A DNA stretch of 54,863 nucleotides from Candidatus Bathyarchaeota archaeon. Lineage in GTDB: Archaea > Thermoproteota > Bathyarchaeia > TCS64. Shown here one piece after another: positions 4,401-25,657 of this stretch. A program made the translations under genes and the position numbers. Under the pieces are notes generated by a model that worked only from the letters and a program-made list of their open reading frames with translations, was not told the origin of the DNA and did not search any database. The stretch spans positions 1-54,863 of the forward strand of contig JAGTRB010000014.1 of assembly GCA_018396865.1 (NCBI GenBank), given 5' to 3'. Within the stretch, counting starts at the first letter, position 1; each line of letters starts with the position of its first letter.

Positions 4401-6164
4401 TTATTCTCTATAGAGGATTCTGCCGGGCCTTGCTCCTGTGTGTCTCCCCTTTTCGATGACCAATACGCCGTTCACCACGACATGCTCTATTCCTTCGGGG
4501 TATCTCCTCGGCTCCAGCTGGTCTCCCCTGTCGATGATGGTCTCTGGGTTCATGACAACGATGTCGGCGTAGGCTCCTGGCTTTATGATGCCCCTATCTC
4601 TCAGCTTAAACTTTCTGGCGGGTAGGGATGTAACCTTCCTTACCGCCTCCTCTAAGGTTAGGGTCTTGGTCTCCCTGACCGCCCTCCTGAAGTACCTGGG
4701 GAATCCTCCGTAGCTGTTCTCGTTGGGCATGTACCATGGTGGGTGGCGGCACTCCCACTTGTCATCTAGGGCGAAGGTGTCTATCCCGACCATCATCTCA
4801 GGATGCTTGTAGAACATCAGCTTGGCCGAGTCGTCTTCCCCCTTTCTCACGGCCTTCGTGTAGGGGTCCCTAGCCAATACCTCCATAAGGGCGTCGAGCG
4901 GGTCCAACTTCAACATCTCTGTGACCTCGGCTAAGGTCTTGCCCATGAACCTCTCCTCCCTGCAGCTGACTATGGTCAGTTCAGCGGCCCAGTTCGGGTT
5001 TATGTTCGGGTTCAGGCCGTACCACTTCCCGGACATGATGATGGCCTTTATCTCAGCCCTGAACTCCTCCATCCTTAAGGCCTCAGCCAGCCCCTCTCTA
5101 GAGCCTGTGACCCTTAGCCATGGGAGCAGCAGCCCGGCAAGCCATGGGGAGGTGTATATGCCCCCTGTTAGGTGGTGTGGTATCACGTCGAAGCTCACGT
5201 CGAGGCCTTCCCCCCTGGCGTCATCTATCAGCTTCAGTGTGGCCCTGACGGAGGCCTCGGTCATGACCTCGCTCCCGGCTGGGTATACGTCGTACAGTGG
5301 GCTGAGGTGGGATATCTGGACTGGAATCCCGCATCTCCTCGCGACCTCTATCGCCTCCAGAACCCCCTTAGCCTTCGGTGGGGGAGGCTCCCCAGGCCTC
5401 CTCTCCCTCCTCAATCCAGTTCGTAGGCTGTGGCTCGTGTATATGCCGCCGTACTCGGCTGCCACCTTGGCGCATGCCAAAAGCTCATCGAGGCCGGCGT
5501 AGTATCCTGGCTCGTAGTCCCTGCCCACGCTGAGGCCCCTGCACCCCTCCTCCATTGCATGCCTTACCTCCTCCTGCATCCTCCTAACCTCCCTCCTAGT
5601 CGCCTTCCTCTTGTAGTCTGGGCCCATCACCAATGTCCTGATCTCACCGTGGCCGACTATTGGAACATAGTTCGGGCTCAGTCCCTTGGCCTCAACCCTC
5701 TTGAAGAACTCCCCCATGGTGTGCCAGTCTATCTCCCATCCGTAAAGCTCCCGATGCCTCTCGTTGACCAGCTCCCTCGGGAGAACCCTGTCCAGGTAGT
5801 ACATGTGAGGTGCAACATCGCAGTATAGGTCGTATAGGAAGTATGCATAGCCTAGATAGTCTCCGTAGGGTCCTGGGCTGGTCCCGCAGTTCCCCCCGAC
5901 GAAGGTGGTTATCCCCTGCCGAAGGAAGCCCTCAGCCTCCGGGTAATATAATATGGAGAGGTCCCCGTGATTATGGACATCGATGAACCCTGGAGCGACA
6001 GCCAACCCACCAACATCCAAGACAACCCTGGCATCACCCCTGATAGTTTCTCCCACCTCGCCTATCCTATCACCCCTGATTGCGACAGAACCCCTGTAGG
6101 CCTCTGAGCCAGTCCCATCCACTATGAGCCCATTAACTATTAGGACATCAAACTCCTCGGACAT
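4401..6164 (-). CDS. N-acyl-D-amino-acid deacylase family amidohydrolase
   Basis: A 587-residue cytoplasmic metal-dependent hydrolase of the amidohydrolase superfamily, subgroup D-aminoacylase. The N-terminal small beta domain (FDVLIVNGLIVDGTG) is followed by GFIDVHNHGD, where the usual H-x-H metal motif is HNH, then FLRQGITTFVGGNCG carrying the conserved Cys of this subgroup. Further metal-ligand histidines are in YTSHSLR and VQISHLSPL, and an Asp lies in VGIDTFALDD. The C-terminal part (VTSLPARKFKLRDRGIIKPG, then AYADIVV) is typical. It would remove acyl groups from N-acyl-D-amino acids or related amides. A paralogue lies at 7967-9640. Compared with that copy, the region around the last Asp is diverged (WECRHPPWYMPNEN), so the substrate may differ. 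It is transcribed alone. Confidence 0.88.
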   Translation of the reverse strand: MSEEFDVLIVNGLIVDGTGSEAYRGSVAIRGDRIGEVGETIRGDARVVLDVGGLAVAPGFIDVHNHGDLSILYYPEAEGFLRQGITTFVGGNCGTSPGPYGDYLGYAYFLYDLYCDVAPHMYYLDRVLPRELVNERHRELYGWEIDWHTMGEFFKRVEAKGLSPNYVPIVGHGEIRTLVMGPDYKRKATRREVRRMQEEVRHAMEEGCRGLSVGRDYEPGYYAGLDELLACAKVAAEYGGIYTSHSLRTGLRRERRPGEPPPPKAKGVLEAIEVARRCGIPVQISHLSPLYDVYPAGSEVMTEASVRATLKLIDDARGEGLDVSFDVIPHHLTGGIYTSPWLAGLLLPWLRVTGSREGLAEALRMEEFRAEIKAIIMSGKWYGLNPNINPNWAAELTIVSCREERFMGKTLAEVTEMLKLDPLDALMEVLARDPYTKAVRKGEDDSAKLMFYKHPEMMVGIDTFALDDKWECRHPPWYMPNENSYGGFPRYFRRAVRETKTLTLEEAVRKVTSLPARKFKLRDRGIIKPGAYADIVVMNPETIIDRGDQLEPRRYPEGIEHVVVNGVLVIEKGRHTGARPGRILYRE

Positions 6165-7966: not shown

Positions 7967-9640
7967 ATGAATAGAGATGTGTTCGACATCGTAATTAAGA
8001 ATGGAAAAATATTCGATGGTACGGGAAATCCCTGGTTCAGGGCGAATATAGGCATCAAGAATGGGATCATCTCTAAAATAACTCGTAAAGAGGATATCAA
8101 AGCTGAAAGGGTTATAGACGCCCGAGGAAAAGCAGTCATGCCCGGAATCGTGGACCTCCACACCCACACGGACTTCTCCATAACATGGAATAACAGGGCA
8201 AAAAATAGGCTAAGGCAGGGGATCACCACCGACGTCGTAGGCAATTGTGGCCTATCTTCCTACGGCTTCAAGAGGGGATTTGAGGGAAAGATTAGCGGAT
8301 GGCTTTCCTCAATGGCTGGAAAGCATATCGAGGTAGATTGGAACACCCTAGCCCAGTGGCGAAGAAAGCTAGAGAGTATTGGAATAGGGAACAATATAGT
8401 CCCATTCATTGGGTTTGGCACTGTGAGGAGGAGCGTTATGGGAGATGAAGGCGAGGGGGGAGAGAGAAATGAGCCTGAGGAACATGAACTGGATGAGATG
8501 AGAACCCTTGTGGAGGAGGCGATGAGAGAGGGCGCCTTCGGATTGACAACAGGATTAGAATATGCTCCACAACGCAATGCCTACACTGAAGAGATAATAT
8601 CTCTTGCTAAGGTTGCATCCTCTTATGGCGGCTGCTACATGTCCCACATAAGATCGGAGGATGACTTCCTCATCGAAGCCGTTGAGGAATTCATCAGGAT
8701 CTGTCTCGAAGCGGATATACCTGGCTGCATATCTCACCATAAGGCATGTAATCCAAGGGTTTGGGGAAAGTCCAAGGAGACCCTGAGACGGATAAATGAA
8801 GCAAGGAATAGGGGTTTAGAGATTATCTGCGATACATATCCATGGCTTTATGTGGCCGTCCGTAATGTTGGGCTCTTCTTCCTGAAGCCAGGAGATTCAA
8901 TCGAGGCTAAGAGAGACGACATCCTTAGATCTATGAAAAACGAGGAGGAATGGATGAAGCTGAAGAATGATGCAAAGATGAGATATGAAGAAGAGAGGAA
9001 ATGGATAGAGGAAACCCGGGAAAAGCTTAAGAGAAGAGGCACCCCAGGTAGGATCCCCTGGGATCCCACAACCTATTACATCATCGTCTATTCGAAGAGA
9101 TTTCCCGAACTAGAGGGGAGGAACTTCACAGAGGCGGCCAAGATGCTGGGCATCGAAGACCCCTGGGACGCGATGAGAAGGCTGTACCTGGCCGATGAAG
9201 GAACAACCTGCGTAGCCATGGGCAGCATGGATGAGGAAGATCTCATAGAAATCCTTAAGGCACCCTTCACAGCGGTCTCCACCGACGCATCGGCTGAGGA
9301 CGAGCCCAGATCTCTTCATCCAAGAGGTTATGGCACCTATCCCCTACTCTTCGAGAGATATGTCAGAGATAAGGCTGTGCTCAGTTTGGAGGAGGCTGTC
9401 CGTAAAATAACATCGCTCCCGGCAGGCTTCCTCGGGCTTGAAGATAGGGGCCTGATAAGAGAAGGTTTCTGGGCCGATCTGGTCGTATTCGACCCATCCA
9501 TGATAGAGAACAGGGCTACATACACTGAGCCAACATCATATCCGATCGGTATCTCCCATGTACTGGTTAACGGAGAACTCGCTGTAGACAACGGAGAGTT
9601 CACCGAGTCCTTGAGTGGAAGGGTCCTAATCCATAGATAA
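7967..9640 (+). CDS. N-acyl-D-amino-acid deacylase (D-aminoacylase)
   Basis: A 557-residue metal-dependent amidohydrolase. The N-terminal beta domain (FDIVIKNGKIFDGTGNPWFR) is followed by PGIVDLHTHTDFS with the H-x-H metal pair, LRQGITTDVVGNCGLS with the conserved Cys, YMSHIRSEDD and CISHHKACN with metal-binding histidines, and AVSTDASAEDEP with the catalytic Asp. HPRGYGTYPLLFERYV and the GLIREG-FWADLVVFDP tail are hallmarks of D-aminoacylases. The length fits the family. It hydrolyses N-acyl-D-amino acids to carboxylate and free D-amino acid. A strong GAGGAGGG site lies just upstream. Compared with the copy at 4401-6164 this one keeps the canonical motifs. Confidence 0.9.
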   Translation: MNRDVFDIVIKNGKIFDGTGNPWFRANIGIKNGIISKITRKEDIKAERVIDARGKAVMPGIVDLHTHTDFSITWNNRAKNRLRQGITTDVVGNCGLSSYGFKRGFEGKISGWLSSMAGKHIEVDWNTLAQWRRKLESIGIGNNIVPFIGFGTVRRSVMGDEGEGGERNEPEEHELDEMRTLVEEAMREGAFGLTTGLEYAPQRNAYTEEIISLAKVASSYGGCYMSHIRSEDDFLIEAVEEFIRICLEADIPGCISHHKACNPRVWGKSKETLRRINEARNRGLEIICDTYPWLYVAVRNVGLFFLKPGDSIEAKRDDILRSMKNEEEWMKLKNDAKMRYEEERKWIEETREKLKRRGTPGRIPWDPTTYYIIVYSKRFPELEGRNFTEAAKMLGIEDPWDAMRRLYLADEGTTCVAMGSMDEEDLIEILKAPFTAVSTDASAEDEPRSLHPRGYGTYPLLFERYVRDKAVLSLEEAVRKITSLPAGFLGLEDRGLIREGFWADLVVFDPSMIENRATYTEPTSYPIGISHVLVNGELAVDNGEFTESLSGRVLIHR

Positions 9641-11376: not shown

Positions 11377-12756
11377 ATGAATTTAAATGAACTTTATGAA
11401 TATATAGATGATCATAGAGAGGAGTATATTGAAAAGCTCCGAGGGTTGCTTATGCAGCCTACTATAGCCGGGGAGAGAAAGGGAATTATGGAGTCTGCGA
11501 ATATGGTGCTGAGCTTCATAAGGGAGACCGGAGCCGAGGCAGAGCTTATTCCGACGAAGGGGGAGGGGAGCCCAGTCATTTATGGAAAGCTCATCGGAGA
11601 CCGAGCGAAGAGAACTATAGTCGCTTACCAGATGTATGACACCCAGCCCGTCATAGACCCTGAATTGTGGATATCCCCACCCTTCGAGGCAAGGATCGTC
11701 GATGATAAGATCATCGCAAGGGGTGCAATCAACAGCAAGGGCCCCCTAATGGCTGAGCTTATGGCCATTAGGGCGGTTAAAGAGGCTACAGGAGAAATGC
11801 CTGTTAACATAATCTTCACCTTCGACGGGGAGGAGGAGGTGGGGAGCTGGCAGTTAAGGCACTTCCTGAGGGAGCAGCCAGAGCGGCTTAAAGGGGCTGA
11901 GTGCGTCTGGATGCCCGGGGTCTTCTCGAGGCACTACAAAAATACGATGATGAGCCTAGGCTCTAAGGGCTGCATCGACTTCCAGTTAAGCATAGATCAT
12001 AAGAGGCCCGAGATACATTCCAGCTGCGCCCCGATCGTCGAGAACCCAGCCTGGCGCCTCGTCTGGGCCCTCAACAGCATGAAGGATTCGGAAGGCCGGG
12101 TGACGATTGAGGGATTCTATGACAACATCATACCCCCAAGCGAGGAGGATATAGAACTGATGAGGAAACTGGTGGAGGCTGGAGAGGAGGAGAGGCTGAG
12201 GAGGCGGTTCGGAATAGAGAGGTTCAGAAAAGACCTTCACGGCCTAGAGCTATTTAAGGAGTACCTCTTCCAGCCTACATTGACAATAAACGGGCTGAGC
12301 AGCGGGTATGTAGGCCCAGCAGCCATGACCATAAACCCAGGGTGGGCCAGGGCAAACCTAGATATCCGGCTGGTCCTAGGGATGGACGCTGATGACATCT
12401 GGGAGAAGATAGGGAGGCACTTGAAGAAGCACGGTTTTGATGATGTTGAGATGAGACTCACAGGTTGGAAGGCTAACGCATCAAAGTCGCCGTTGAACAC
12501 AAACATAGCCAGGGCCTGGAGGAATGCCATAAAGAGCGCGGGGTTCAACGACCCCATCATCTACCCAATGGGAGCAGGAACAGGCCCATACATGTATTAT
12601 ACCGCACCTCCTCTGAACCTAGCCGCGGCTTCGGCGGGAAGCTCCGACATGCCTCCCCACCACGCCCATGCACCTAACGAGTACATAACAACAGAGGAAT
12701 ATATCACGACGACGAAGATGGCCGCCACCTTTCTTATAGAATATGGAAAACTTTAG
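11377..12756 (+). CDS. M20-family metallopeptidase homologue with altered metal site
   Basis: A 459-residue cytoplasmic protein with the M20 layout: catalytic domain, dimerisation domain (about 190-310) and a C-terminal return to the catalytic domain. In place of the usual NHYDVQP motif it has YQMYDTQPV (Met86 where the first metal His is expected, Asp88 kept). In place of RGAxDxKG it has RGAINSKGP (Asn119 for the bridging Asp). The EEE at 152-154 keeps the catalytic Glu pair, the Asp expected near 178-180 is not seen (CVWMPG), and the C-terminal His is present in HAPNEYITTEEY. Such proteins are normally aminoacylases or dipeptidases using two zinc ions. This copy may bind one metal or none, or belong to a distinct subfamily. 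It stands alone with its own promoter. Confidence 0.85.
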   Translation: MNLNELYEYIDDHREEYIEKLRGLLMQPTIAGERKGIMESANMVLSFIRETGAEAELIPTKGEGSPVIYGKLIGDRAKRTIVAYQMYDTQPVIDPELWISPPFEARIVDDKIIARGAINSKGPLMAELMAIRAVKEATGEMPVNIIFTFDGEEEVGSWQLRHFLREQPERLKGAECVWMPGVFSRHYKNTMMSLGSKGCIDFQLSIDHKRPEIHSSCAPIVENPAWRLVWALNSMKDSEGRVTIEGFYDNIIPPSEEDIELMRKLVEAGEEERLRRRFGIERFRKDLHGLELFKEYLFQPTLTINGLSSGYVGPAAMTINPGWARANLDIRLVLGMDADDIWEKIGRHLKKHGFDDVEMRLTGWKANASKSPLNTNIARAWRNAIKSAGFNDPIIYPMGAGTGPYMYYTAPPLNLAAASAGSSDMPPHHAHAPNEYITTEEYITTTKMAATFLIEYGKL

Positions 12757-13088
12757 AGACACCCCTTTTCTTACATAAAAAAAGGAAGTTAATTAGATAT
12801 TTTGAATGTAATTTTTTAAACATATTTTATTGTAGTACAAAAATTTACCATAATTAACCCGATAAAGATATTTAGATCTCTCGGAAAAAATCAAAATAAT
12901 TAGCAAAATATATAAGTAATTAGATAAGGTTATTATAATGAGAATGTATCAAATCTTGTTAAAAGTTGTTATTGGATTGAGGTGGTCACATAATTAACTT
13001 ATGCTTCCTAAATTAATCCGGAGTTAATATAAAGATGGGGCAAAAACCTTTAAATAAGAATATAAACAATAAATAGGAGGTCTTGAAA
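12757..13088 (+). promoter_or_regulatory. AT-rich spacer with promoter of the four-gene membrane operon
   Basis: No gene is seen in this roughly 330-bp, very AT-rich stretch. CTTTAAATA at 13048-13056 is a good TATA box, and AGGAGG at 13075-13080 precedes the first gene. Because AGGAGG is only 2 nt before the TTG at 13083 but 8 nt before a second in-frame TTG at 13089, the latter is the better start. Confidence 0.5.
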
Positions 13089-13847
13089 TTGCTAAAATCC
13101 GGAACTGCCTCAGCTTTTGTGTTTTTAGTAATCTCTTTTGCAATATTCACCTACTACCTCTACAGGTCTGTTCGAGGAAAGGCTCCGAGGATCCGGACCA
13201 TACCGGGACTGGAGGCATTTAAAGAGGTCATAGGTAGGGCGGTGGAGACGGGTAGACCCGTCTATTACTCCACGGGTGTGGGGCGTCTGACAGGAGGAGA
13301 CATGTCGATGACGGTGGCAGGTCTCAGCCTCCTAGGATACGCTGCTCAATTATCTTCAAGCTATGGAGCCCGCTTCCATTATATCGCTGCAGCAGCTCCG
13401 GAGGTGGTTCCAATAGCCGAGGATATGATAAAGACTGCCTATAGGGAGAATTACAGGGAGGATCAGATCACCTATGTTCCATCTCAGCCAGCCCTAAAGT
13501 CGACGGTCGCCGGGACATACGAGCGGGAGAGGCCCGCGGCCAATTTCGTATTGGGGGCTCTTTACTGGGAGACGGTCGTTCTATGCGAGGCTGGTGCTAG
13601 GGCCGGTGCGATGCAGATAGGAGGAACCGGCAGACTCTATCAGGTTCCCTTCATAGCCTCGCTGTGCGACTTCTCTCTAATAGGAGAGGAGCTACTGGCA
13701 GCTGGGGCTTATGTCTCTAAGGAGCTCGCCATGCTGGGCTCTATACAGGCATCCGACGTTTTAAGGGCAGTCATCGTGGGTCTCTCAATCCTCATCATGC
13801 TTGGAAGTATCCTTAGGGTGAACATTCCTCAGCTGCTTGGGATGTGA
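13089..13847 (+). CDS. Membrane-anchored DUF6754-like protein, cassette gene 1
   Basis: About 252 residues. One N-terminal membrane segment (SAFVFLVISFAIFTYYLY) and one C-terminal segment (VLRAVIVGLSILIMLGSIL) flank a soluble domain of about 180 residues. That domain contains conserved-looking blocks: GRPVYYSTGVGRLTGGDMSM, the Ala-rich FHYIAAAAPEVVPIAEDMI, and GARAGAMQIGGTGRLYQVPF. It resembles the uncharacterised family DUF6754, from memory and pattern. No catalytic motif is recognisable. It is the first of four genes joined by 4-nt or short overlaps, which suggests a fixed membrane complex. The start is TTG, chosen by distance to AGGAGG. Confidence 0.7.
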   Translation: MLKSGTASAFVFLVISFAIFTYYLYRSVRGKAPRIRTIPGLEAFKEVIGRAVETGRPVYYSTGVGRLTGGDMSMTVAGLSLLGYAAQLSSSYGARFHYIAAAAPEVVPIAEDMIKTAYRENYREDQITYVPSQPALKSTVAGTYERERPAANFVLGALYWETVVLCEAGARAGAMQIGGTGRLYQVPFIASLCDFSLIGEELLAAGAYVSKELAMLGSIQASDVLRAVIVGLSILIMLGSILRVNIPQLLGM

Positions 13848-14476
13848 GAGATATGGGTGCGATGAACTGGGTTAGATCAAAGGAAGTCCCACTGATAATT
13901 TTCGCTATATTTTTCTTTGCCTCTATTGGAGGATACTACATTGATGTACCTATAATTTCGAGGATAAATACTGAGCTCGCTGACTGGGTTACAATAATGG
14001 TGAACATAGCTTTAGGAACTGGCCTTATAGCATTAATTCTTTACCATAGAAGAAGAATCGTGCAAAGGGCGAGAGGATATCAGCTTAGCTTCATCATATT
14101 TGTTGCTATAATGGTGATGTTCATAGCAATGTATTCTGGTCCAGATATAAGCGGATGGTTATATGGTAAGGTATTTACAAGCATGCAGACAGCGGTCATA
14201 TGTTTTGCTCTCTTCTATGAGATCAGTGGGGCCTATAGAGCCTTTAGAGTTAGGAATATCGAGGCCTTCCTACTGATGATCTCAGGTTTCATCCTGATAA
14301 TGAACTTCGCACCAGTCTATGAGTCCGCCTTCCCAGCCTTCGGAGAACTACCTAGATGGATCTTGAGCGTTCCGGCGATGGGGGCGAGCCGAGGAATCTT
14401 GATAGGTGTAGGAATTGGGACCATCGCCTTGGCGGTGAGGATCCTCCTAGGATATGAGAAGCTTTACACGAGGTGA
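13844..14476 (+). CDS. Six-helix membrane protein, cassette gene 2
   Basis: 210 residues with about six membrane helices, including VPLIIFAIFFFASIGGYYI, VTIMVNIALGTGLIALILY, LSFIIFVAIMVMFIAMY, TAVICFALFYEISGAY and ILIGVGIGTIALAVRILL. A basic loop (HRRRIVQRARGY) follows the second helix and is probably cytoplasmic. The GTG start overlaps the stop of gene 1 (GTGA); an ATG 9 nt later is an alternative. I recognise no named family. It is likely the integral partner of the DUF6754-like protein. Confidence 0.7.
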   Translation: MRDMGAMNWVRSKEVPLIIFAIFFFASIGGYYIDVPIISRINTELADWVTIMVNIALGTGLIALILYHRRRIVQRARGYQLSFIIFVAIMVMFIAMYSGPDISGWLYGKVFTSMQTAVICFALFYEISGAYRAFRVRNIEAFLLMISGFILIMNFAPVYESAFPAFGELPRWILSVPAMGASRGILIGVGIGTIALAVRILLGYEKLYTR

Positions 14477-15300
14477 AGAGGTTGGCATTGAAGGTGCTCG
14501 GCCAGAATTATCGTCAGATAATATTTATCATAGTGCTTATAGGTTGCTTTTTCCCAGCTTTCTTTCCGATAGGCTTACCGATCTCGACGAGCCCGCTAAC
14601 AGTAAAAGCTTACAGGTTTATAGAGGCCCTGAAAGCTGATGACCTGGTTTTGGTTTCAATAGACTATGGACCAGGGGGCTGGGCTGAGATAGGCCCAGGC
14701 ATGAACGCCGTAGTCCAGCATCTTTTCTTAAAAAAGGTGAACATAGTCTTCGTTAGCTTTGTAACCGATGGCCCGGCTATGACCGAGAAGTTGCTCAAGG
14801 AGATCGACATAGCCGGGGCCAAGTACGGCGTGAACTATGCGATCCTGGGATATATGCCCGGAGATGAAGTCGCCATGGCAGCTTTCGCGGAGAACCCTCT
14901 AAGAATAACTAAAGACTATTACGGAAACGAGATAGGTCAACTCGACATCATGAAGAAGATAACGACGATAGGTGATTTCAAACTTTACATACCCGCGCAT
15001 ATAACGGGTCCGGAGCCCTGGATACGTCAATTCTATGGGAAGGTCCAGACAATAATAATGGTGATATCCCCAGCTGCGCTTTCCTTAGTTCAGCCATGGG
15101 TTGACTCTGGCCACCTATACTCCATGATACCTGGGACGAAGGGGGGAGGTGAGTACGAGGTTTTGCTAAGGAAACCAGGGATAGCGACATCTATAATGGA
15201 TGCAACATCCTTAACCCTTACTCTAGTAATGGTCCTCATCATTATAGGTAACATCGTGTATCGTAAGGAGAGATCAAAAGAAGTTAGAGGAGGTGGTTAA
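14473..15300 (+). CDS. Membrane-anchored protein with large soluble domain, cassette gene 3
   Basis: 275 residues, starting at a GTG that overlaps the previous stop by 4 nt. An N-terminal membrane helix (IIFIIVLIGCFFPAFFPIGL) and a C-terminal one (SLTLTLVMVLIIIGNIVY) enclose an extracytoplasmic-looking domain of about 190 residues. The domain has an alternating strand-helix pattern (DDLVLVSIDYGPGGWAEIGP, VNIVFVSFVTDGPAMTEKLL, YGVNYAILGYMPGDEVAM), suggesting an alpha/beta fold, and ends with MIPGTKGGGEYEVLLRKPG. No family is recognised. Same topology as gene 1: two anchors around a soluble core. Confidence 0.7.
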   Translation: MKRLALKVLGQNYRQIIFIIVLIGCFFPAFFPIGLPISTSPLTVKAYRFIEALKADDLVLVSIDYGPGGWAEIGPGMNAVVQHLFLKKVNIVFVSFVTDGPAMTEKLLKEIDIAGAKYGVNYAILGYMPGDEVAMAAFAENPLRITKDYYGNEIGQLDIMKKITTIGDFKLYIPAHITGPEPWIRQFYGKVQTIIMVISPAALSLVQPWVDSGHLYSMIPGTKGGGEYEVLLRKPGIATSIMDATSLTLTLVMVLIIIGNIVYRKERSKEVRGGG

Positions 15301-15301
15301 T

Positions 15302-15964
15302 ATGGATATAATGACAGATATAATTATAGCCTTGTTTACGCTAATGGCTTGGAGTATGCTATATAGAGAGAACTTTTTCTACAACATAGTTGAAAATCTC
15401 ATCATAGGATTTGGTATGGGCTACACTCTATACATAATGATCACCACTTTAGGTAGGGTATTGTACACACCTTTAATGGGAGGAAGGTGGACACTAATAA
15501 TACCAACCATATTAGGTTTTCTGCTATATACAGCGATCTCTGAAAGGTATAGATTCCTCAGCAGATGGGGCGCTGCAGCCATCACCGGGAGCGGGCTGGG
15601 GTTCGCCGTGAGCAGAGCCATACCGGTGCAGATCCTCGGACAGGTAAAAATGTTCTATATTAAGCTTGATGGATCAGATGCGTTCGGAATAATAAATTGG
15701 ATCATAATATCTATAACAGCAATAACCACAATAATGTATTTCACCTTCACCAGAGAACATAAGGGAATTCTGGGAACTGTAAGTAAAATAGGGAGATGGA
15801 GTATGATGATAGCGTTTGGCGCAACCTTTGGCTCAACCATAGGCGGCGATTTAACTTATGTCATAGAGCGAAGCATCTTCCTATCCAGATACCCTCAAGT
15901 CTATCTCCTCATACCAGCTGCTGCAGTTATTCTATATGATGCTTATAGAAGAAGAAAATCCTAA
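15302..15964 (+). CDS. Polytopic membrane protein, cassette gene 4
   Basis: About 220 residues with some six or seven membrane segments, including IIIALFTLMAWSMLY, LIIGFGMGYTLYIMITTLG, LIIPTILGFLLYTAI, AAAITGSGLGFAVSRAIPV, WSMMIAFGATFGSTIGG and VYLLIPAAAVILYDAY. The ATG at 15302 has GGAGGTGG five bases upstream and is preferred over the GTG at 15293. It overlaps or abuts gene 3 and is followed at once by a T-run, so it ends the cassette. Function unknown; genes 2 and 4 would form the membrane core for the anchored proteins 1 and 3. Confidence 0.7.
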   Translation: MDIMTDIIIALFTLMAWSMLYRENFFYNIVENLIIGFGMGYTLYIMITTLGRVLYTPLMGGRWTLIIPTILGFLLYTAISERYRFLSRWGAAAITGSGLGFAVSRAIPVQILGQVKMFYIKLDGSDAFGIINWIIISITAITTIMYFTFTREHKGILGTVSKIGRWSMMIAFGATFGSTIGGDLTYVIERSIFLSRYPQVYLLIPAAAVILYDAYRRRKS

Positions 15965-15972
15965 TTTTTTTT
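15965..15972 (+). terminator. Oligo-T terminator of the membrane cassette
   Basis: Eight T residues follow directly on the TAA of cassette gene 4. Archaeal transcription commonly stops at such runs, which supports the cassette being a unit that ends here. Confidence 0.5.
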
Positions 15973-16225: not shown

Positions 16226-18541
16226 ATGGCTTACGATAAGATCCTTGAGGGGGTTCTGCAGAGAGACGAGTATCTGATTGTGGGTAAGAGCATAGCCAGG
16301 GTCGACGCCCTAGACAAGGCCCTCGGGAGGGCCATGTTCACAGGGGACTATATCTCGAAGGAGGCCATTACGGTCAAAGTTCTTAGGAGCGCCGAACCTC
16401 ACGCGAAGATTGGGAGGATAGATTACGGGGAGGCCCTCCAGATCCCTGGTGTCCTGGCGGTCCTGACCGCATCAGACATTCCGGGGGAGAATCAGATCGG
16501 ATACGCCCTTCCAGACCAGCCCCTCCTAAATGACAGGAAAGTTCACTGCATCGGGGATCCAATAGCCCTCATCTGCGCCTTGGATGAGGAGGCCGCCTCG
16601 GAGGGGCTTGAGGCTGTGAGTGTGGAGTACGAGCCCCTCAAACCCAACTTCGACATAGACTCTTCTCTGGAGGCCGGGGCCGAGCTCATCCATGAGGGGG
16701 GCAACATAGCCACCAAAACCCGGATAAGGAAGGGGGACATCGATAAGGGCTTCTCGGAGGCGGAGGTAGTGGTGGAGGAGACCTATGAGACCCCCTACCA
16801 GGAGCACATGTGCCTAGAGCCTGAGGCGGCTTACGCTATACCCGAGGGGGTTGGGAAGGTGACGGTGATAGGCACGATGCAGAGCCCCTTCCTCGTGAGG
16901 GAGAAGGTGGCCCAGGTCCTTGGCTGGAGCCTGAACAGGGTTCGGGTGATACAGGCTCTAACTGGAGGGGCCTTCGGGAAGAAGGATGACATGGGCCCCA
17001 TAGTCTCCGCGATGGCCGCCTTGGCAGCCTACAAGCTCGGCAGGCCCTCAGCCTTGGTCCTGGACAGGGATGAGTCGGCAGCCCACTCGGTGAAGAGGTA
17101 TCCAGCCAGGATAAGATACAGGTCTGGGGCCGGCGGGGAGGGGAGAATAACCGCGGCAGAGGTGGATATAACCCTTGACTGCGGGGCGTACGCTAATAGG
17201 GCTCCCTACTGGCTCTGGAGGCAGACAGTCCACGCCACAGGCCCATATGAGGTTGAGAACGTGTATGTCGATGGGAGGGCGGTCTACACCAACAAGGTCT
17301 ACGGCGGCAGCTTCAGGGGTTTCGGCGACGTGGCCATCCACTTCGCAGCCGAGTCCCAGGTGGACAGATTAGCGGAGAAGCTTGGGATGGACCCCATAGA
17401 CTTCCGCTTGAGGAACGTATTGAGGCCGGGCTCGAGGACTGGATGCGACCAGCTCCTAGACCACTCGGTTGGGATGGAGGAGTGCCTAAGGGGGGTGAAG
17501 GAGGCCTCCTCCTGGAGGGATCTCAGGAAGACGGAGAGGGGCGGCAGAAGGGTTAGGGGGGTTGGAGTTGGATGCGGCTTCCACGGCATAAGCACGAGCA
17601 GGGCGGCCCCGGACTGGTCTGCAGCCTACATAATCCTGAACGCCGATGGGACCTTCACTTACAGGACTGGGATCTGCGAGCTCGGCCAGGGATCCCCCAT
17701 AGGCCACGCCAAGATAGTCGCGGAGATCCTCGGAGCGCCCATAGAAGCCATAAGGGTTGAGGGGCCAGACACAGACTCGACGCCGGATGCAAGGCCGACC
17801 CATGGGAGCAGGGGACTCATGCTTGGGGGGACAGCCGCGGCGGAGGCGGCCCTAGAGCTGAGGAGGAGGATGATCGGGGTTGCCGCGGAGATGCTGGGAT
17901 GCGGGATTGAGGAGGTGGAGATGAGGGGGGGAAGGGCCTACAAGAGGGGCGACCCATCCCATGGGGTGAGCTTCTCGGAGCTCGCCGAGGAGCTCTACTA
18001 TAAGGGGTTATCCCCAGCAGCCTATGGGTTCTACGCGCCTCCCAAACGGCAGTTCGACCCTGAGACGGGATTGGGGGTGAGCTACTCGGTTTACACCTTC
18101 ACCGCGACTGTGGCGGAGGTAGAGGTGGACCTAGAGACGGGATTTGTAGAGGTTCTTAGAGTCTGGCCCGCAATGGATGTGGGGAAGGCCGTGGACCCCT
18201 TGATGGTCGAGGGGCAGATCCACGGGGCCATATCCCAGGGGATGGGCTTCGCATTGATGGAGAAGCTCGTCGTCGAGAAGGGCAGGGTCCTGAACCCGAA
18301 CTTCAAGGATTACATAATCCCCACAAGCATGGATATGCCGAAGGTGGAGAAGCCCATCATAGTAGAAGCCCCCTACAGGCACTCCGCCTTCGGGGCTAAG
18401 GGAGTGGGGGAGCCGGCCATTATCTCGATAGTCCCGGCCATAGCCAACGCCATCCACCACGCAACGGGGATAAGGTTCAGCAGGCTGCCCATCACCCCCG
18501 AGGCCCTATACATGGCCCTGAGGAGGGGGGATGAGATATGA
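16226..18541 (+). CDS. Molybdenum hydroxylase large subunit (xanthine dehydrogenase family), triad 1
   Basis: A 771-residue molybdopterin-binding subunit. Order: an N-terminal hammerhead domain (GRAMFTGDYISKEAITVKVL), a first molybdopterin domain with GGAFGKKDDMGP, the active-site loop KVYGGSFRGFGDVAIHFAAE, the second molybdopterin domain (ICELGQGSPIGHAKIVAEIL), and the catalytic-Glu motif FGAKGVGEPAI near the C-terminus. The loop lacks the Cys of the AYRCSFR motif of true aerobic CO dehydrogenase (Gly here), so CO is unlikely as substrate. These enzymes hydroxylate purines, aldehydes or N-heterocycles, passing electrons through Fe-S and FAD subunits encoded directly downstream with 4-nt overlaps. 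Confidence 0.9.
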   Translation: MAYDKILEGVLQRDEYLIVGKSIARVDALDKALGRAMFTGDYISKEAITVKVLRSAEPHAKIGRIDYGEALQIPGVLAVLTASDIPGENQIGYALPDQPLLNDRKVHCIGDPIALICALDEEAASEGLEAVSVEYEPLKPNFDIDSSLEAGAELIHEGGNIATKTRIRKGDIDKGFSEAEVVVEETYETPYQEHMCLEPEAAYAIPEGVGKVTVIGTMQSPFLVREKVAQVLGWSLNRVRVIQALTGGAFGKKDDMGPIVSAMAALAAYKLGRPSALVLDRDESAAHSVKRYPARIRYRSGAGGEGRITAAEVDITLDCGAYANRAPYWLWRQTVHATGPYEVENVYVDGRAVYTNKVYGGSFRGFGDVAIHFAAESQVDRLAEKLGMDPIDFRLRNVLRPGSRTGCDQLLDHSVGMEECLRGVKEASSWRDLRKTERGGRRVRGVGVGCGFHGISTSRAAPDWSAAYIILNADGTFTYRTGICELGQGSPIGHAKIVAEILGAPIEAIRVEGPDTDSTPDARPTHGSRGLMLGGTAAAEAALELRRRMIGVAAEMLGCGIEEVEMRGGRAYKRGDPSHGVSFSELAEELYYKGLSPAAYGFYAPPKRQFDPETGLGVSYSVYTFTATVAEVEVDLETGFVEVLRVWPAMDVGKAVDPLMVEGQIHGAISQGMGFALMEKLVVEKGRVLNPNFKDYIIPTSMDMPKVEKPIIVEAPYRHSAFGAKGVGEPAIISIVPAIANAIHHATGIRFSRLPITPEALYMALRRGDEI

Positions 18542-19416
18542 AGCCCCTACCGGCCTTAAGCCTCCACCGCCCAAGAACCCTAAATGAGGCCTTGAAACTC
18601 CTCAAAGAGCTGGAGGATGCTAAGCCCATTGCGGGGGGAACAGACCTCATCCCAACTATGAGGGAGGGAGCCCTAAGGGTGAGAAACCTCGTAGACCTGA
18701 CCATGATAGAGGCCCTAAGGGGGATCTGGGAGAAGGCCGGCGAGATCTATATAGGCGCGGCTACAACCCTAAGCCAGCTCGAGAGGTCGAAGATCATAGC
18801 TGAGAGGGCTCCAGCCCTCTGGGCCGCGGCCACCTCCATCGGCAGCGTCCAGATAAGGAACCTAGGAACCATAGGGGGGAACCTTTGCAACGCCTCCCCA
18901 GCCGCTGACACAGCGCCACCCCTCCTAACATTAAACGCGGTGGCCGACATAGCCTCAGAGGATGAATGGAGGACGATACCCCTCCATAGCCTCTTCGCAG
19001 GGCCGAAGCTCACCAGCCTGAAGCCCTGGGAGCTCCTCACCCATGTAAGGTTCCCAACACCACCTGAGAATGTAGGGATGTCCTTCCAGAAGCTTGGGAG
19101 GAGGAAGGGGCACACCATCTCCCTCGTCAACGCCTCGGCCTACCTAGAGCTCGAGGGGCTGACCTGCCGAGATGTAAGGATCGCGCTCGGGTCCGTGGCC
19201 CCTACGCCCATAAGGGTTTGGGAGGTGGAGGAGATGATGAGGGGGAGGAGGATGACGGAGGAACTCATAGAGGAGGCAGCCTCCAACTGCTACAAGCTCG
19301 TGAGCCCCATAGACGATTTGAGGGCATCAGCCAGTTATAGAAGGGAGATGTCAAGGGTTCTGGTTAGGAGGGCTCTAAGGGAGGCCTGGACGAGGGCTAG
19401 GGGTGAGGTGGGATGA
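18538..19416 (+). CDS. Molybdenum hydroxylase FAD-binding medium subunit, triad 1
   Basis: 292 residues of the CoxM/CutM type. It carries both FAD-binding signatures: AKPIAGGTDLIPTMREGALR near residue 35 and IRNLGTIGGNLCNASPAADT near residue 110. The C-terminal CO_deh_flav_C-type domain includes GRRKGHTISLVNASAYLELE and ALGSVAPTPIRVWEVEEMM. It accepts electrons from the Fe-S subunit. Its ATG overlaps the large-subunit stop (ATGA), and its stop overlaps the small-subunit start in the same way. Confidence 0.92.
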   Translation: MKPLPALSLHRPRTLNEALKLLKELEDAKPIAGGTDLIPTMREGALRVRNLVDLTMIEALRGIWEKAGEIYIGAATTLSQLERSKIIAERAPALWAAATSIGSVQIRNLGTIGGNLCNASPAADTAPPLLTLNAVADIASEDEWRTIPLHSLFAGPKLTSLKPWELLTHVRFPTPPENVGMSFQKLGRRKGHTISLVNASAYLELEGLTCRDVRIALGSVAPTPIRVWEVEEMMRGRRMTEELIEEAASNCYKLVSPIDDLRASASYRREMSRVLVRRALREAWTRARGEVG

Positions 19417-19880
19417 GGATCTCCTTCAAGCTCAACGGCAGAGATGTGACATGTGAGGCTAGGGACAACATCTCCCTCCTAGACCTCCTGAGGAGAGAGC
19501 TGGGGGTTAAGAGCGTGAAGAAGGGATGCGACCAGGGCGAGTGCGGGGCCTGCACCGTCCTGCTCGACGGGTCACCTGTCAACTCCTGCCTAATACTAGC
19601 CCCAAAACTGGAGGGGAGGGAGGTCACAACGGTTGAGGGACTCCAAAAGGACCCGATCATGAGGAGGCTTGTGGATAGCTTCATAGAGGATGGGGCCATC
19701 CAGTGCGGCTTCTGCACACCCGGAATGCTCCTCTCAGCCTACGCCCTTCTCAGGGATAATCAGAGGCCCACCATCGATGAGGTGAAGAGGGCGATCGTGG
19801 GAAACCTATGCAGGTGCACAGGCTACGTCAACATAGTTAAGGCCATCCTCGACGCCTCTGAGAGGATCAGAGATGGGTGA
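19413..19880 (+). CDS. Molybdenum hydroxylase [2Fe-2S] small subunit, triad 1
   Basis: 155 residues of the CoxS/CutS type. The plant-type cluster is ligated by KGCDQGECGACTVLLDG with SCL further on; the second cluster by QCGFCTPGM and GNLCRCTGYV. All eight cysteines are present, so electron transfer should be intact. Coupled to the FAD subunit by a 4-nt overlap and to the XdhC gene by an 8-nt overlap. Confidence 0.94.
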   Translation: MRISFKLNGRDVTCEARDNISLLDLLRRELGVKSVKKGCDQGECGACTVLLDGSPVNSCLILAPKLEGREVTTVEGLQKDPIMRRLVDSFIEDGAIQCGFCTPGMLLSAYALLRDNQRPTIDEVKRAIVGNLCRCTGYVNIVKAILDASERIRDG

Positions 19881-20670
19881 TGTAGAGATACTCAGGAGGC
19901 TCACGGACCTATTAGAGGGAGGGAGGCCCGCAGCCCTCTGCACCCTAATCGAGAAGAGGGGGTCCGCGCCAAGGGGCGTGGGAGCCAAGATGATCGTCGA
20001 TGCGGATGGCAACAGCTATGGCACGATCGGGGGTGGAGATATGGAGAGAAAGATCGTTAAGGAGGCCTTAGAGGCTATCAGGGAGGGTAGACCCCGGGTC
20101 CTGAACTTCGCCCTTGGAGTCGAGCCGGGGGAGGGAGCGATCCCGGTTGAATCTATGTGTGGAGGCGAGGTAAGAGTATTCATAGACGTTTTGAGGCCCG
20201 AGCCTAAGCTCATAATAATAGGCTCAGGCCACATAGCGAAGCCCCTCGCCACACTCGCGGAGATAGTTGGCCTCGAGGCAATAGTGGTGGATGACGCCGA
20301 GACGGCGACTGCGGAGAGGTTCCCCAAGGTCAGAGAGTTGAGGACAGGACCCTTCGAGAGGGAGCTTGAAGAGCTGAAGGTGAGACCATCGGACTTCGTG
20401 GCCATAGTCCACGGGGATGAGAGGCATGAGCTGGAGGCGTTGAGGAGGATGCTGGGGAAGACGGGCTATATAGGTCTACTGGGGAGCAGGAGGAAGGCCG
20501 AGGCCCATAAGAGGAGGCTGATGGAGATGGGCTTCAATGAGGAGGATGTTAGGAGGATCCACGCCCCCATCGGCCTGGATATAGGCGCCACAACACCCGA
20601 GGAGATAGCCATAAGCATAATGGCCGAGATCATCAGGGAGAGGCGGCGGGGGCCTCATAAAGCCTCCTAG
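19873..20670 (+). CDS. XdhC/CoxI-type molybdenum hydroxylase maturation factor
   Basis: 265 residues. The N-terminal XdhC/CoxI domain has CTLIEKRGSAPRGVGAKMIV and GTIGGGDMERKI. The C-terminal Rossmann-like domain has KLIIIGSGHIAKPLATLAEI and GYIGLLGSRRKAEAHKRRLM. XdhC proteins bind the molybdenum cofactor, help its sulfuration and insert it into the large subunit. It ends the triad 1 operon. Its last 38 bases overlap the 3' end of the convergent nucleotidyltransferase gene. Confidence 0.9.
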   Translation: MGDVEILRRLTDLLEGGRPAALCTLIEKRGSAPRGVGAKMIVDADGNSYGTIGGGDMERKIVKEALEAIREGRPRVLNFALGVEPGEGAIPVESMCGGEVRVFIDVLRPEPKLIIIGSGHIAKPLATLAEIVGLEAIVVDDAETATAERFPKVRELRTGPFERELEELKVRPSDFVAIVHGDERHELEALRRMLGKTGYIGLLGSRRKAEAHKRRLMEMGFNEEDVRRIHAPIGLDIGATTPEEIAISIMAEIIRERRRGPHKAS

Positions 20671-21946: not shown

Positions 21947-22411
21947 TTAGTGCTTTGCTCTTCCGGCTGCCGATTTCACTGCCTTAACTATGTTGACATA
22001 GCCTGTGCACCTGCATAGGTTCCCCTTGAGGTACTCCCTTATCTCCTTCTCCGTGGGCTCTGGGTTCTCTTTCAGTAGGGCTTTAGCCGCCATTATGAAT
22101 CCAGGTGTGCAGAAGCCGCACTGGATGGCCCCGGTCTCCATGAAGGCCTCCTGCAGCGGGTCGAGGCTGCCTCCCTCGCCCAGACCCTCTATTGTCTCCA
22201 CAGTCTTTCCATCCACTTCAGCGGCGAGGGTGAGGCATGAGAGGACCGGCTCCCCATCTAATAGGACCGTGCAGGCCCCGCACATGCCTATTCCGCATCC
22301 ATACTTGGTCCCCGTAAGGCCAAGCTCATCTCTGAGGAGGTTCAGGAGGAGCTGGTTAGGCTCAACATCCACGCTCTTCTTCCTACCATTCAGGGTGAAC
22401 TCTACCCTCAT
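21947..22411 (-). CDS. Molybdenum hydroxylase [2Fe-2S] small subunit, triad 2
   Basis: About 154 residues with both Fe-S cluster motifs: YGCGIGMCGACTVLLDG plus SCL, and QCGFCTPGF plus GNLCRCTGYV. I chose the ATG at 22411 because it overlaps the FAD-subunit stop as ATGA and follows a GGAGG site; an ATG six codons upstream would lie inside the previous gene. Last gene of triad 2, which runs in the order large, FAD, Fe-S. Confidence 0.93.
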   Translation of the reverse strand: MRVEFTLNGRKKSVDVEPNQLLLNLLRDELGLTGTKYGCGIGMCGACTVLLDGEPVLSCLTLAAEVDGKTVETIEGLGEGGSLDPLQEAFMETGAIQCGFCTPGFIMAAKALLKENPEPTEKEIREYLKGNLCRCTGYVNIVKAVKSAAGRAKH

Positions 22412-23310
22412 GGCCTCCGCCCCCCACATCTCTCCATCGCAGTCTTAAGGGCGTCCCTCAACAAAACCCTTGAGGCCTCCTTTCTATACTCGGCTGTTGC
22501 CCTGATATCGGTTATTGGTTTTATGGAGGCCTCCACCATCCCAGCGGCCTCCTCTAAAACCTCTGGTGCAAACTCCCTGCCCAAGAGGAACCCCTCCACG
22601 TTCCTCAGCCTTAAGGGCTTTGGAGCCACAGATCCCATAGCTATCCTGCAGTGGTCGATGGTCCAGCCTTTTAGACGGAGGACCACGGCTATGTTGACGA
22701 TGGCTAGGTCTAGGCTGGTTCTCCCTAGCTTCATAAAGGATGACCCGCCATCCTCAGGGGGGTAGGGGACATAAACACCTGTGAGGATCTCGTCTGGCTT
22801 GAGGAGGGTCATCCTCGGCCCGAGGAAGAACTCCTCCAAGGGAGACCTCCTAATCCCTGTAGGACCTGCGATCTGGGCCTCCGCCTCTAGGGCTAGGAGG
22901 GCGACGGCGGCGTCGGCTGATGGGCTCGCCCTGCATAGGTTACCACCAATAGTCCCCATGTTCCTGACCTGAACAGAGCCCATGGAGGAGACGGCTTCAC
23001 GTAGGAGGGGGAACCTCAACTTGATGGCCTCAGACCTCTCCAGCTCCCTAAGCCTCACAGCTGAGCCTATCATGAGGCCCCCTGAATCCTCCCTCAAGAG
23101 CCTTAACTCGGGGATCCTCTTTATGTCGATAAGGTGTCTGGGCTCTATGAGCCTCTGCTTCATGTCCACAAGCAGGTCTGTTCCCCCGGCCAGGATCCGG
23201 GCCTCTGAGCCGTACTTTGAGAGGAGGGCTAGGGCCTCTTCGAGGCTGTTTGGGGAGTGATACTCGAACCTGAAGGGTATTATGCGTGTGTTGACCCTGT
23301 TGATCTCCAA
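22408..23310 (-). CDS. Molybdenum hydroxylase FAD-binding medium subunit, triad 2
   Basis: 300 residues. FAD motifs are ARILAGGTDLLVDMKQRL near residue 40 and VRNMGTIGGNLCRASPSADA near residue 115; the C-terminal domain has AMGSVAPKPLRLRNVEGFLL. A TTG start 4 nt after the large-subunit stop follows AGAGGTGAGAGG. It pairs with the other two subunits of triad 2 and is clearly paralogous to, but distinct from, the triad 1 subunit. Confidence 0.92.
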   Translation of the reverse strand: MEINRVNTRIIPFRFEYHSPNSLEEALALLSKYGSEARILAGGTDLLVDMKQRLIEPRHLIDIKRIPELRLLREDSGGLMIGSAVRLRELERSEAIKLRFPLLREAVSSMGSVQVRNMGTIGGNLCRASPSADAAVALLALEAEAQIAGPTGIRRSPLEEFFLGPRMTLLKPDEILTGVYVPYPPEDGGSSFMKLGRTSLDLAIVNIAVVLRLKGWTIDHCRIAMGSVAPKPLRLRNVEGFLLGREFAPEVLEEAAGMVEASIKPITDIRATAEYRKEASRVLLRDALKTAMERCGGRRP

Positions 23311-23314
23311 CCTC

Positions 23315-25657
23315 TCACCTCTTATCTCTCAGGGCCTTTAGGATCCTGTCCGGGGTTATCGGGAGCTCGTAGAACCTAACCCCAAGGGCGTTTGAGATGG
23401 CGTTAGCCACAGCAGCGGCCGCGGGGTTCTTGGCCGCCTCCCCCAGCCCCTTGGCCCCGAAGGGGCCTGTTGGCTCATGAGTATCAACGAAGAAGACCTT
23501 GAAATCCTCCACATAGGGCATGTCAGCGGCTGTGGGCACCTTATAGTCTGTTATGTATCCCCTGCATAGTAGGTCCCCGGTCTCTGGGTCGTAGGGGGTG
23601 TCCTCCAGCACAGCGAGGCCCCAGCCCATGGCGAAGCCCCCGTGGATCTGGCCCTCCGCCAGGTCGGGGTTTATAACGGTTCCTATGTCGGCCCCCGCCA
23701 CAACCCTTACCGGCCTAACCCTCCCAGTCTCGGTGTCCACCTCGACCTCTACGAAGAAGGCTGTGAAGTGGGGTGGACAGCTTCCAGGCCTTAGGCTCAC
23801 AGCTGAGGCTATGGTCCCCCAGTTCTTATGTCTGGCCATGGATGCCAGCTCGCCTATGGTGATCTCCTTACCCTCTATGCCCTTGGCGTAGATGACCCCC
23901 TGCCCGAGCTCCTCATCGGGCCTTATCTCCAGGGCGTGGGGGTAGGCGTCGAGAGCCCTCGCAGCTAGCTCTAACAACCTCCCCTTAACCTCCATCGCCG
24001 CCTTAAGGGCGGCACCTCCACCGGCGTATACGCCCCTTGATGCGTGGGTGCATACATCGTATAGGGTTGTCTGTGTGTCGGCTGCGACTATGTTGACGGC
24101 CTTGAGGGGTACCCCAAGCTCCTCTGCAATTATCTTGGCGTGGGCCTCTAGGGAGCCCCCTCCCTGGTCTACCATGGCTGTGATGTAGTCGATGGTTCCA
24201 TCCTCGTTCACCTTCAGTATGGCTCCGGAGTAGTCGACGACGGTGCCTGGGACCGCAGCGCCCGCGCTTGAGGTGTGGAACCCCCTTCCCAGGCCGATGC
24301 CGCGCCTGTATCTCCCCCTCTGCTCTCCGGGTTTGGGCCTCTTATCCCATCCTATCAGCTCCGCTCCCCTCCTGAGGATCTCCTCAACCCCGCAGCTCTG
24401 TATGATCGACTTCACCGTGGGGCCCTGACCCCAGAATACGTCCCCCTCGCCCACATAGTTCTTCAGGCGGAGTTCTATGGGGTCCATATCAAGGGTCTCA
24501 GCCAACTCGTCCATCATAGACTCCACCATCCATGTCGTCTGGGGGTTTCCATAGCCCCTCATGGCGCAGGATGGAACCTTATTCGTGTAGACGGCCCTTC
24601 CCCTATACCTCTTACTTGGGAGCTTGTAGAGGGAGACCCACCAACCCACAACACAGCCTAGGAGGGGGTAGGCCTGAACCTGGTGTGCCCCTATATCCAT
24701 AACCATATCGAGCTCCCCAGCGGTGAGCCTTCCATCCCTCTTAGCCCCGAGCCTCAGCCTGAAGATCATCTGGTACGATGAGTGGTCGTGCATATCCTCC
24801 TCTCTCGTGTAGGCCAGCTTGACGGGCCTCCCAGCCTTAAGGGCTAGGGCGACGGCGATCGGCACAACGAGGTTTGTGTGGATGCTTGAGCCGAAGCTAC
24901 CCCCCAGGGGAAGCCTATAAACCCTAATCCTGCTCACCGGTATGCCGAATATCTCGTGGATGAGGAGCCTCGTGTTATGTATGGTCTGGGTTGTGCACCA
25001 GACTGAGACCCCTCCATCCGGCTCGGGGTTGACGAGGGCGGACTTCACCTCAAGCTGGTTGTGGTAGCGCCTGCTCGTCCTGTACTCCCTCTCCAGAACC
25101 ACATCGGCCTCTCCAAACCCCTTCTCTACATCCCCCTCAGCGACCTCTAAACGGCATGCGAGATTCCCCTCAACCCATGTCTCCTTCTCTCCCAGAAGGA
25201 TGGTCTCGTGGAGCTGGGGCTTCCCAGGCCTCATCGACTCTAGGGGGTCTAATACTGGTTCTAGGACCTCATACTCAACCCTTATCGACTCCAGCGCCCT
25301 CTGGGCCTCCTCCTCAGACTCGGCGGCCACAGCCGCGATGGGCTCCCCGACATACAGGGGCCTATCCGTGAGGGCCAACCAGTCCTTATAGGTGGCCTCC
25401 GGGGTGCTGACAAGCCTCGGGCAGAACCTGACCCTGGGGATATCCCTGAAGGTTATGACCGTTGCCCCCATACCCTCAGCCTCAGAGACGTCGATGTTTC
25501 TCACCCTTGCGTGGGGGTAGGGGCTCTTCAAAACCCTAGCGTGGAGCATATTCCTCAGGCCATAATCCGACGCGTATCTCTCGAGGCCTCTAACCCTGGC
25601 GATGCCATCCTTCCTCGCGGTCCTCTCCCCTAGCACCCTGAAACTCTTCCCAGACAT
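23315..25657 (-). CDS. Molybdenum hydroxylase large subunit (xanthine dehydrogenase family), triad 2
   Basis: 780 residues. The N-terminal domain (IARVRGLERYASDYGLRNML) is followed by molybdopterin-domain motif LGGSFGSSIHTNLVVPIAVA, active-site loop KVPSCAMRGYGNPQTTWMVE, MVDQGGGSLEAHAKIIAEEL and the catalytic-Glu motif FGAKGLGEAAKNPAAAAVAN. The loop ending MRGYGNPQ resembles 4-hydroxybenzoyl-CoA reductase or nicotinate-dehydrogenase-type enzymes more than CO dehydrogenase, although a Cys sits near the position of the CoxL active-site Cys. Substrate unknown; probably an aromatic or N-heterocyclic compound. First gene of triad 2, facing triad 1. Confidence 0.9.
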   Translation of the reverse strand: MSGKSFRVLGERTARKDGIARVRGLERYASDYGLRNMLHARVLKSPYPHARVRNIDVSEAEGMGATVITFRDIPRVRFCPRLVSTPEATYKDWLALTDRPLYVGEPIAAVAAESEEEAQRALESIRVEYEVLEPVLDPLESMRPGKPQLHETILLGEKETWVEGNLACRLEVAEGDVEKGFGEADVVLEREYRTSRRYHNQLEVKSALVNPEPDGGVSVWCTTQTIHNTRLLIHEIFGIPVSRIRVYRLPLGGSFGSSIHTNLVVPIAVALALKAGRPVKLAYTREEDMHDHSSYQMIFRLRLGAKRDGRLTAGELDMVMDIGAHQVQAYPLLGCVVGWWVSLYKLPSKRYRGRAVYTNKVPSCAMRGYGNPQTTWMVESMMDELAETLDMDPIELRLKNYVGEGDVFWGQGPTVKSIIQSCGVEEILRRGAELIGWDKRPKPGEQRGRYRRGIGLGRGFHTSSAGAAVPGTVVDYSGAILKVNEDGTIDYITAMVDQGGGSLEAHAKIIAEELGVPLKAVNIVAADTQTTLYDVCTHASRGVYAGGGAALKAAMEVKGRLLELAARALDAYPHALEIRPDEELGQGVIYAKGIEGKEITIGELASMARHKNWGTIASAVSLRPGSCPPHFTAFFVEVEVDTETGRVRPVRVVAGADIGTVINPDLAEGQIHGGFAMGWGLAVLEDTPYDPETGDLLCRGYITDYKVPTAADMPYVEDFKVFFVDTHEPTGPFGAKGLGEAAKNPAAAAVANAISNALGVRFYELPITPDRILKALRDKR

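Follow-up and report, generated by a model that had tools for sequence, protein, structure and literature searches.

A DUF6754-led cassette of four membrane proteins, shared by archaea and Bacillota, is a candidate transporter family

We describe a system of four membrane proteins, here called P1 to P4, that is encoded by consecutive genes in a 54,863-nt stretch of DNA (the window; forward strand of contig JAGTRB010000014.1, assembly GCA_018396865.1) from Candidatus Bathyarchaeota archaeon. The system is without a described function in the literature that we searched; Pfam holds P1 as a domain of unknown function (DUF) and misses the other three proteins. An earlier reading made from the DNA alone (the sequence-only reading) had placed four open reading frames (ORFs) at 13048-15972, where all four are indeed present, and had proposed that their products form a hetero-oligomeric membrane machine. 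We find this proposal probable, given the strict coupling of the genes and the conservation of their order over distant genomes, and comparative inference gives good support to the idea of a single obligate complex of four membrane subunits. That this complex is a solute transporter, with the 15 paralogous cassettes of the host genome as versions for different substrates, is a reading to which we give about an even chance.

Conservation of the cassette as one heritable unit

We defined a cassette as P1, P2, P3, and P4 encoded consecutively on the same strand in the same order, as they are in the window, and assembled 57 distinct complete examples, 33 archaeal and 24 from Bacillota. Cassettes at high-GC bacterial loci were found with hidden Markov models run on all ORFs. 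Order and strand are kept in all 57, far more often than chance would allow, with median intergenic gaps of 12, 2, and 0 nt, and the incomplete cassettes that we observed are truncated where short loci or contigs end. The search for the same gene order in other archaea and in bacteria, which the sequence-only reading had proposed, thus speaks for a single system. Neither of the outcomes that it had named as fatal, genes standing apart elsewhere or each protein belonging to an unrelated transporter family, was encountered, and the idea of a membrane machine survived. The matrices of pairwise distances computed for P1 to P4 are correlated (r = 0.86–0.90), partly owing to shared ancestry; none of 500 permutations reached these values, the best giving 0.22. 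Since the distances match while many paralogs coexist in each genome, subunits were not swapped between cassettes. In a concatenated tree, cassettes from Bacillota fall into a single supported group, and the archaeal paralogs are old. Orthologous pairs occur in distant families of the phylum (the window cassette with L086, and L023 with L083, where L numbers designate loci), and L025, L088, and L095 are orthologs within the order.

The host genome (1.83 Mb in 43 contigs, 97% complete, 3% contamination) encodes 15 DUF6754 proteins, and each of their genes opens a complete P1-P2-P3-P4 cassette. Profiles of P2, P3, and P4 likewise give exactly 15 matches each, all inside cassettes and with no orphans, so that this archaeon devotes 60 genes to cassettes in a genome of 1.8 Mb. 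This multiplicity, like the character of the neighboring genes discussed below, goes beyond what had been read from the window. Contamination is not the cause of the 15 copies, since as many as nine matches are present in individual sister genomes of the genus. P1 is present in 30 of the 32 genomes of the order, and P3 is also absent from the two that lack P1. A sample of the phylum gave a match in 8 of 300 genomes, seven of them above the cut-off and each of these seven multi-copy. The cassette also occurs in 32 of 399 Bacillota genomes, drawn from the phylum of one Bacillota metagenome-assembled genome (MAG). One Bacillota genome (G644; L079 and L080, contig C1, ≈2074000-2097000) carries seven whole cassettes in ≈24 kb with no other genes between them. 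A second array (G687, L098) has three cassettes in a row plus one inverted, the only intervening gene being DUF483-like. Frame-broken DUF6754 genes were seen in two genomes (G315, C10:12409-13013; G665, C120:8064-8931), which suggests decay of single copies or assembly errors.

Membrane topology and architecture of the four proteins

P1 and P3 each consist of a domain of ≈200 residues with a single hydrophobic helix at either end, whereas P2 and P4 are polytopic, as had been noticed from the sequence, with six helices and five to six helices, respectively. The shared topology of P1 and P3 that had been claimed holds for the anchors but not for the orientation. Among the sequences decided by the positive-inside rule, 52 of 54 place the P1 domain inside and 55 of 55 place the P3 domain outside, and this opposite charge bias is seen in archaea and bacteria alike. 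By charge bias, P1 and P3 are therefore mirror images of one another in the membrane, which would be a rare design.

Structure prediction of the single proteins, another check proposed at the outset, gave confident AlphaFold2 models of P1 and P3 (pLDDT 93–94, with a pTM of 0.87 for each; Table 1), the underlying alignments holding 44 relatives for P1 and 33 for P3. The two models have an identical order of elements, namely helix, helix, alternating strands and helices, and a final long helix. In profile comparisons with hhalign, the P1-P3 probability is low (17.5% and 5.5%), and the score of 25.8 exceeds the highest value from 40 column shuffles (19.0); the remaining pairs of subunits score 12.7–20.4. 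Common ancestry of P1 and P3 is thus suggested by sequence profiles, not proven. P2 and P4 as duplicates of one another were considered and rejected (hhalign probability 3%, falling to 0.2% with larger alignments).

Twelve polar residues of P1 are near-invariant (R38, E48, R52, E55, Q135, R148, E163, E169, D196, E202, E203, and D225). P2, the N terminus of which is predicted to lie inside, has positively charged, Arg-rich inner loops, and its near-invariant polar residues are S82, R132, R137, R183, R199, and E205, with R132 and R137 noted in connection with those loops. The acidic set of P1 may contact the Arg-rich inner loops of P2.

Relation to known families and systems

P1 is a clear member of Pfam family PF20539 (DUF6754), a resemblance that the sequence-only reading had noted. 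The match scores 186.5 bits, where the curated cut-off is 27 bits, and spans model positions 11-245 of 257 and P1 residues 9-241. The PF20539 entry describes one domain of unknown function, and searches of Pfam, NCBIfam, PHROGs, and PADLOC gave no hit above cut-off for the invariant partners P2, P3, and P4. Two candidates under the cut-off were dropped, VWA for P3 (E = 0.17) and DUF3290 for P2 (E = 0.097). No PADLOC model of anti-phage defense matches any of the four proteins, P1 has no match in a viral structure library, and the comparison for plasmid carriage of the cassette gave no match. DUF6754 or PF20539 is mentioned in no paper of the open-access library that we searched, subscription papers, preprints, and TCDB lying outside this search.

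Relatives of P1–P4 in the PDB were found neither by sequence nor by profile. Foldseek searches of the PDB gave only generic Rossmann-like matches. The best E value is 2.0e-3 for P3 and reaches 2.7e-3 for P1, the TM-scores by query are ≈0.2–0.4, and different proteins are matched by the two; we therefore recognize no known functional relative of either. The folds concerned, those of SIS, molybdenum cofactor (MoCo) carrier, and dehydrogenase domains, share a general alternating β/α architecture with P1 and P3, and a likeness at this level (E = 2e-3 to 3e-3) is no evidence of shared function.

Two kinds of known importer resemble the cassette in outline. ATP-binding cassette (ABC) peptide importers of the Opp/Dpp type likewise consist of several subunits, with two membrane proteins between a recognition domain on the outer side and another domain on the inner side, and have peptidase neighbors. 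Unlike them, the cassette has no match to an ATPase, BPD_transp_1 permease, or substrate-binding protein family, and two helices anchor P3. Searches of Pfam and NCBIfam gave no ATPase match (ABC_tran) for the four proteins, P1 included, and neither P2 nor P4 matches the ABC permease domain, the PF00528 matches of the genome lying elsewhere. Tripartite ATP-independent periplasmic (TRAP) and tripartite tricarboxylate transporters (TTT) share with the cassette two unequal membrane proteins plus an extracytoplasmic domain, the lack of an ATPase, and large paralog families. They differ in that P1–P4 match none of their Pfam or NCBIfam families (DctM/DctQ, TctA/TctB, and DctP/TctC), in that the cassette has an additional protein with a cytoplasmic domain, and in that its outer domain has a membrane anchor at each end. 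Because these defining features failed the family searches, the cassette is none of ABC, TRAP, or TTT, even if it may work alike. That no known transporter family would be visible in any of the four proteins had been correctly anticipated.

Genes adjoining the cassettes

The genes next to the 15 cassettes of the host genome vary by copy, with peptidases and amidohydrolases as a recurrent theme that points to peptide, amide, and amino acid metabolism. The overall list of such neighbors comprises M20, M42, M19, M14, M81, creatininase, Amidohydro_2 and Amidohydro_3, AstE, M24, and beta-lactamase-type hydrolases (Table 1). M20 and M42 genes are enriched near cassettes, 5 of the 21 in the genome lying within 1.5 kb compared with 0.50 expected (binomial P = 1.1e-4). 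The subfamily of the window cassette adjoins a hydrolase gene in three of three places (M20 in the window, Amidohydro_3 at L086, and M81 at L026), and the M20 gene upstream of the window cassette is a probable functional partner. Particular clades of the cassette also retain particular neighbors, namely a DUF483 gene, an OadA-like gene, or a MutL-like ATPase gene together with one for an unnamed protein.

A candidate transporter and its alternatives

We infer a physical complex and, from its context, a role in transport, along with the direction (uptake), the energy source, and the class of substrate. In such a complex, the extracytoplasmic α/β domain of P3 would bind a solute outside, P2 and P4 would provide the path across the membrane with their helix bundles, and the cytoplasmic α/β domain of P1, with its conserved Glu/Asp/Arg set and its probable contact to the inner loops of P2, would gate or couple transport. 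Because P1–P4 match no known ATPase family, transport would probably be driven by an ion gradient if no ATPase acts in trans. The neighborhoods suggest small compounds of the amide, peptide, or amino acid type as likely substrates. Many diverged paralogs and tandem arrays free of enzyme genes are typical of transporters. The diverged copies, the enzyme-free arrays, a recognition-type domain on each face of the membrane, the two polytopic subunits, and the peptide- and amide-cleaving neighbors favor a transporter family with different substrates over an enzyme or sensor.

Several observations weigh against transport. No sequence or fold match to any transporter emerged from the PDB searches. 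TATA-like boxes lie upstream of 12 of the 15 cassettes in the genome and runs of at least six T downstream of 8 of 15, so most cassettes look like separate transcription units, apparently with their own promoters, and co-transcription with the neighboring enzymes is therefore not shown. Amidohydro_3 genes are only weakly enriched: none of the 18 lies within 1.5 kb of a cassette, and 4 lie within 5 kb, where 1.4 would be expected (P = 0.048). PF00528 matches number 3–13 in cassette-bearing archaea and 2–13 in cassette-free relatives; because ABC permease counts are not lower, the cassette does not simply replace ABC importers. Finally, some copies adjoin carbon monoxide dehydrogenase/acetyl-CoA synthase, oxidoreductase, MutL-like, or OadA-like genes, which are compatible with other functions.

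One such function, which we regard as rather unlikely, is that of a membrane-bound enzyme complex, whether an amidase or peptidase, an ion-pumping decarboxylase-like enzyme, or a redox enzyme, that carries out a membrane-spanning reaction on substrates related to those of the neighboring hydrolases. The near-invariant polar residues of P1, about a dozen, exceed what a scaffold needs, and one clade always adjoins an OadA-like gene (L082, L087, L089, and L091), the usual partners of OadA being membrane decarboxylase subunits. However, no subunit shows a catalytic or cofactor motif or an enzyme family match, the OadA link is limited to that clade, and 15 paralogs together with enzyme-free tandem arrays would be unusual for such an enzyme. 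An α/β domain on either side of the membrane and many paralogs beside different catabolic genes would also suit a transmembrane sensor, in which P3 detects a ligand outside and P1 reports inside, the paralogs being receptors for different nutrients. We consider this improbable, as domains of the kinase, cyclase, HAMP, receiver, and DNA-binding kinds are missing from P1–P4 and were not noticed as regular neighbors of cassettes, and as a receptor would not need two polytopic proteins of five to six helices.

It is about as improbable, in our view, that the cassette is an exporter or a machine for the cell envelope or lipids with incidental hydrolase neighbors. Several Bacillota cassettes do adjoin housekeeping or envelope genes instead of hydrolases (L067 and L075), and no substrate-binding protein of a known kind is encoded; the enrichment of M20 and M42 and the conservation of neighbors within subfamilies argue the other way, and neither 15 diverged copies nor absence from most of the phylum is expected of such a machine. 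Direct interaction among P1–P4 is putative, and four independent genes could share an operon by chance or only for regulation, with no common complex. This is hardly credible in view of the equal counts of 15 without orphans, the invariant order, and the matched distances.

Returning to transport, a more specific proposal is possible but short of probable: a new class of transporter that lacks a recognizable ATPase, with two ancestrally related, membrane-anchored, and oppositely inserted α/β proteins around two polytopic subunits, present in archaea and Bacillota in up to 15 substrate-specific copies per genome. If the cassette is indeed a transporter, it adds a transport class with testable substrate links for each copy. 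The cassette thereby bears on how these uncultured peptide- and amino acid-fermenting archaea feed. A study of peptide-fermenting Bathyarchaeota lists only oligopeptide/ABC-type transporters and reports several MAGs that lack oligopeptide importers, which its authors ascribe in part to incomplete genomes (PMC9534799).

Gene layout and further features of the loci

The genes had been described as fused by overlaps. This holds for the P1/P2 and P2/P3 junctions, which overlap by 4 nt each, whereas the 8-nt overlap of P3 and P4 exists only with a GTG start of P4 at 15293. An alternative ATG at 15302, preceded by GGAGGTGG, is equally good and leaves a 1-nt gap after P3. The true start of P1 is probably the TTG at 13089, 7 nt past AGGAGGT, rather than 13083. 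The predicted TATA box before the cassette, here part of a B recognition element (BRE)/TATA-like match, and the T8 run after it were both located (Table 1).

Table 1. Features of the window cassette and of genes near this and other cassettes
Feature	Location	Strand	Remarks
BRE/TATA-like element, GCAAAAACCTTTAAATAAG	13040..13058	+	Read in DNA; consensus match only; TATA-like part CTTTAAATAA at ≈13049-13058
P1, DUF6754 protein	13083..13847	+	254 aa; PF20539 E = 6.5e-55; model pLDDT 93.1
P2, six-helix membrane protein, N terminus inside	13844..14476	+	210 aa; no family above cut-off
P3, helix, extracytoplasmic α/β domain, helix	14473..15300	+	275 aa; model pLDDT 93.8; no family above cut-off
P4, five- to six-helix membrane protein	15293..15964	+	223 aa; no family above cut-off
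T8 run, terminator-like	15965..15972	+	Read in DNA
M20-family peptidase/deacylase gene	11377..12756	+	Outside cassette; PF01546 E = 1.4e-17
Two Amidohydro_3 genes	Window 4401-6164, 7967-9640		D-aminoacylase-like; upstream of M20 gene and cassette
M20	Window, L030, L031		Beside cassette
M19 with M20	L022
M19 and Amidohydro_2	L032
M42 and beta-lactamase-type hydrolase	L024
M81/MlrC	L026
Creatininase	L028
Amidohydro_3	L023, L025, L033		One or a few genes off
Amidohydro_3 and M20	L072		Bacillota; opposite sides of a single cassette
M24	L069		Bacillota
AstE and creatininases	L070		Bacillota
Beta-lactamase-type	L074		Bacillota
M20	L077		Bacillota
DUF483-type gene	L025 5916-6809; L088 12684-13559; L095 4814-5698; L098 8699-9604		PF04467 in L025; by sequence likeness in L088, L095, and L098 (Bacillota)
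MutL-like pair	L029 3555-6595; L088 6565-9556; L092 5394-8403; L096 2026-5033; L097 3670-6611		L097 from Bacillota
Small helical protein	L027 3729-4061 and 4669-5043; L028 7198-7524; L029 6647-6997; L033 5967-6341; L088 4744-5160

Other genes recur beside cassettes. The DUF483-type gene lies directly downstream of one archaeal subfamily and beside cassettes in Bacillota; the titles and abstracts of papers on DUF483 hold nothing that bears on the cassette. In the subfamily with the OadA-like carboxyltransferase gene, which lies directly upstream, DUF917-like, PxpBC-like, Hdr-like, and ETF-like genes stand nearby, all these identities, that of the OadA-like gene included, being read from sequence. 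A MutL-like ATPase gene (PF13941) followed by one for an unnamed 384-aa protein (AYTPGLKV...RRLPIPG.VLVKVGD; no Pfam match) recurs in archaea and Bacillota. A small helical protein of ≈110–140 aa, also with no Pfam match and sometimes accompanied by a small membrane protein of two to three helices, is possibly an accessory subunit. Within the window, two convergent three-gene clusters for molybdenum hydroxylases of the xanthine dehydrogenase-like type (16226-20670 and 21947-25657) lie near the cassette and flank XdhC-like, MobA-like, and Maf-like genes. In the scanned part of these clusters, 16226-19416, the NCBIfam matches to XdhA and XdhB are under the equivalog cut-off.

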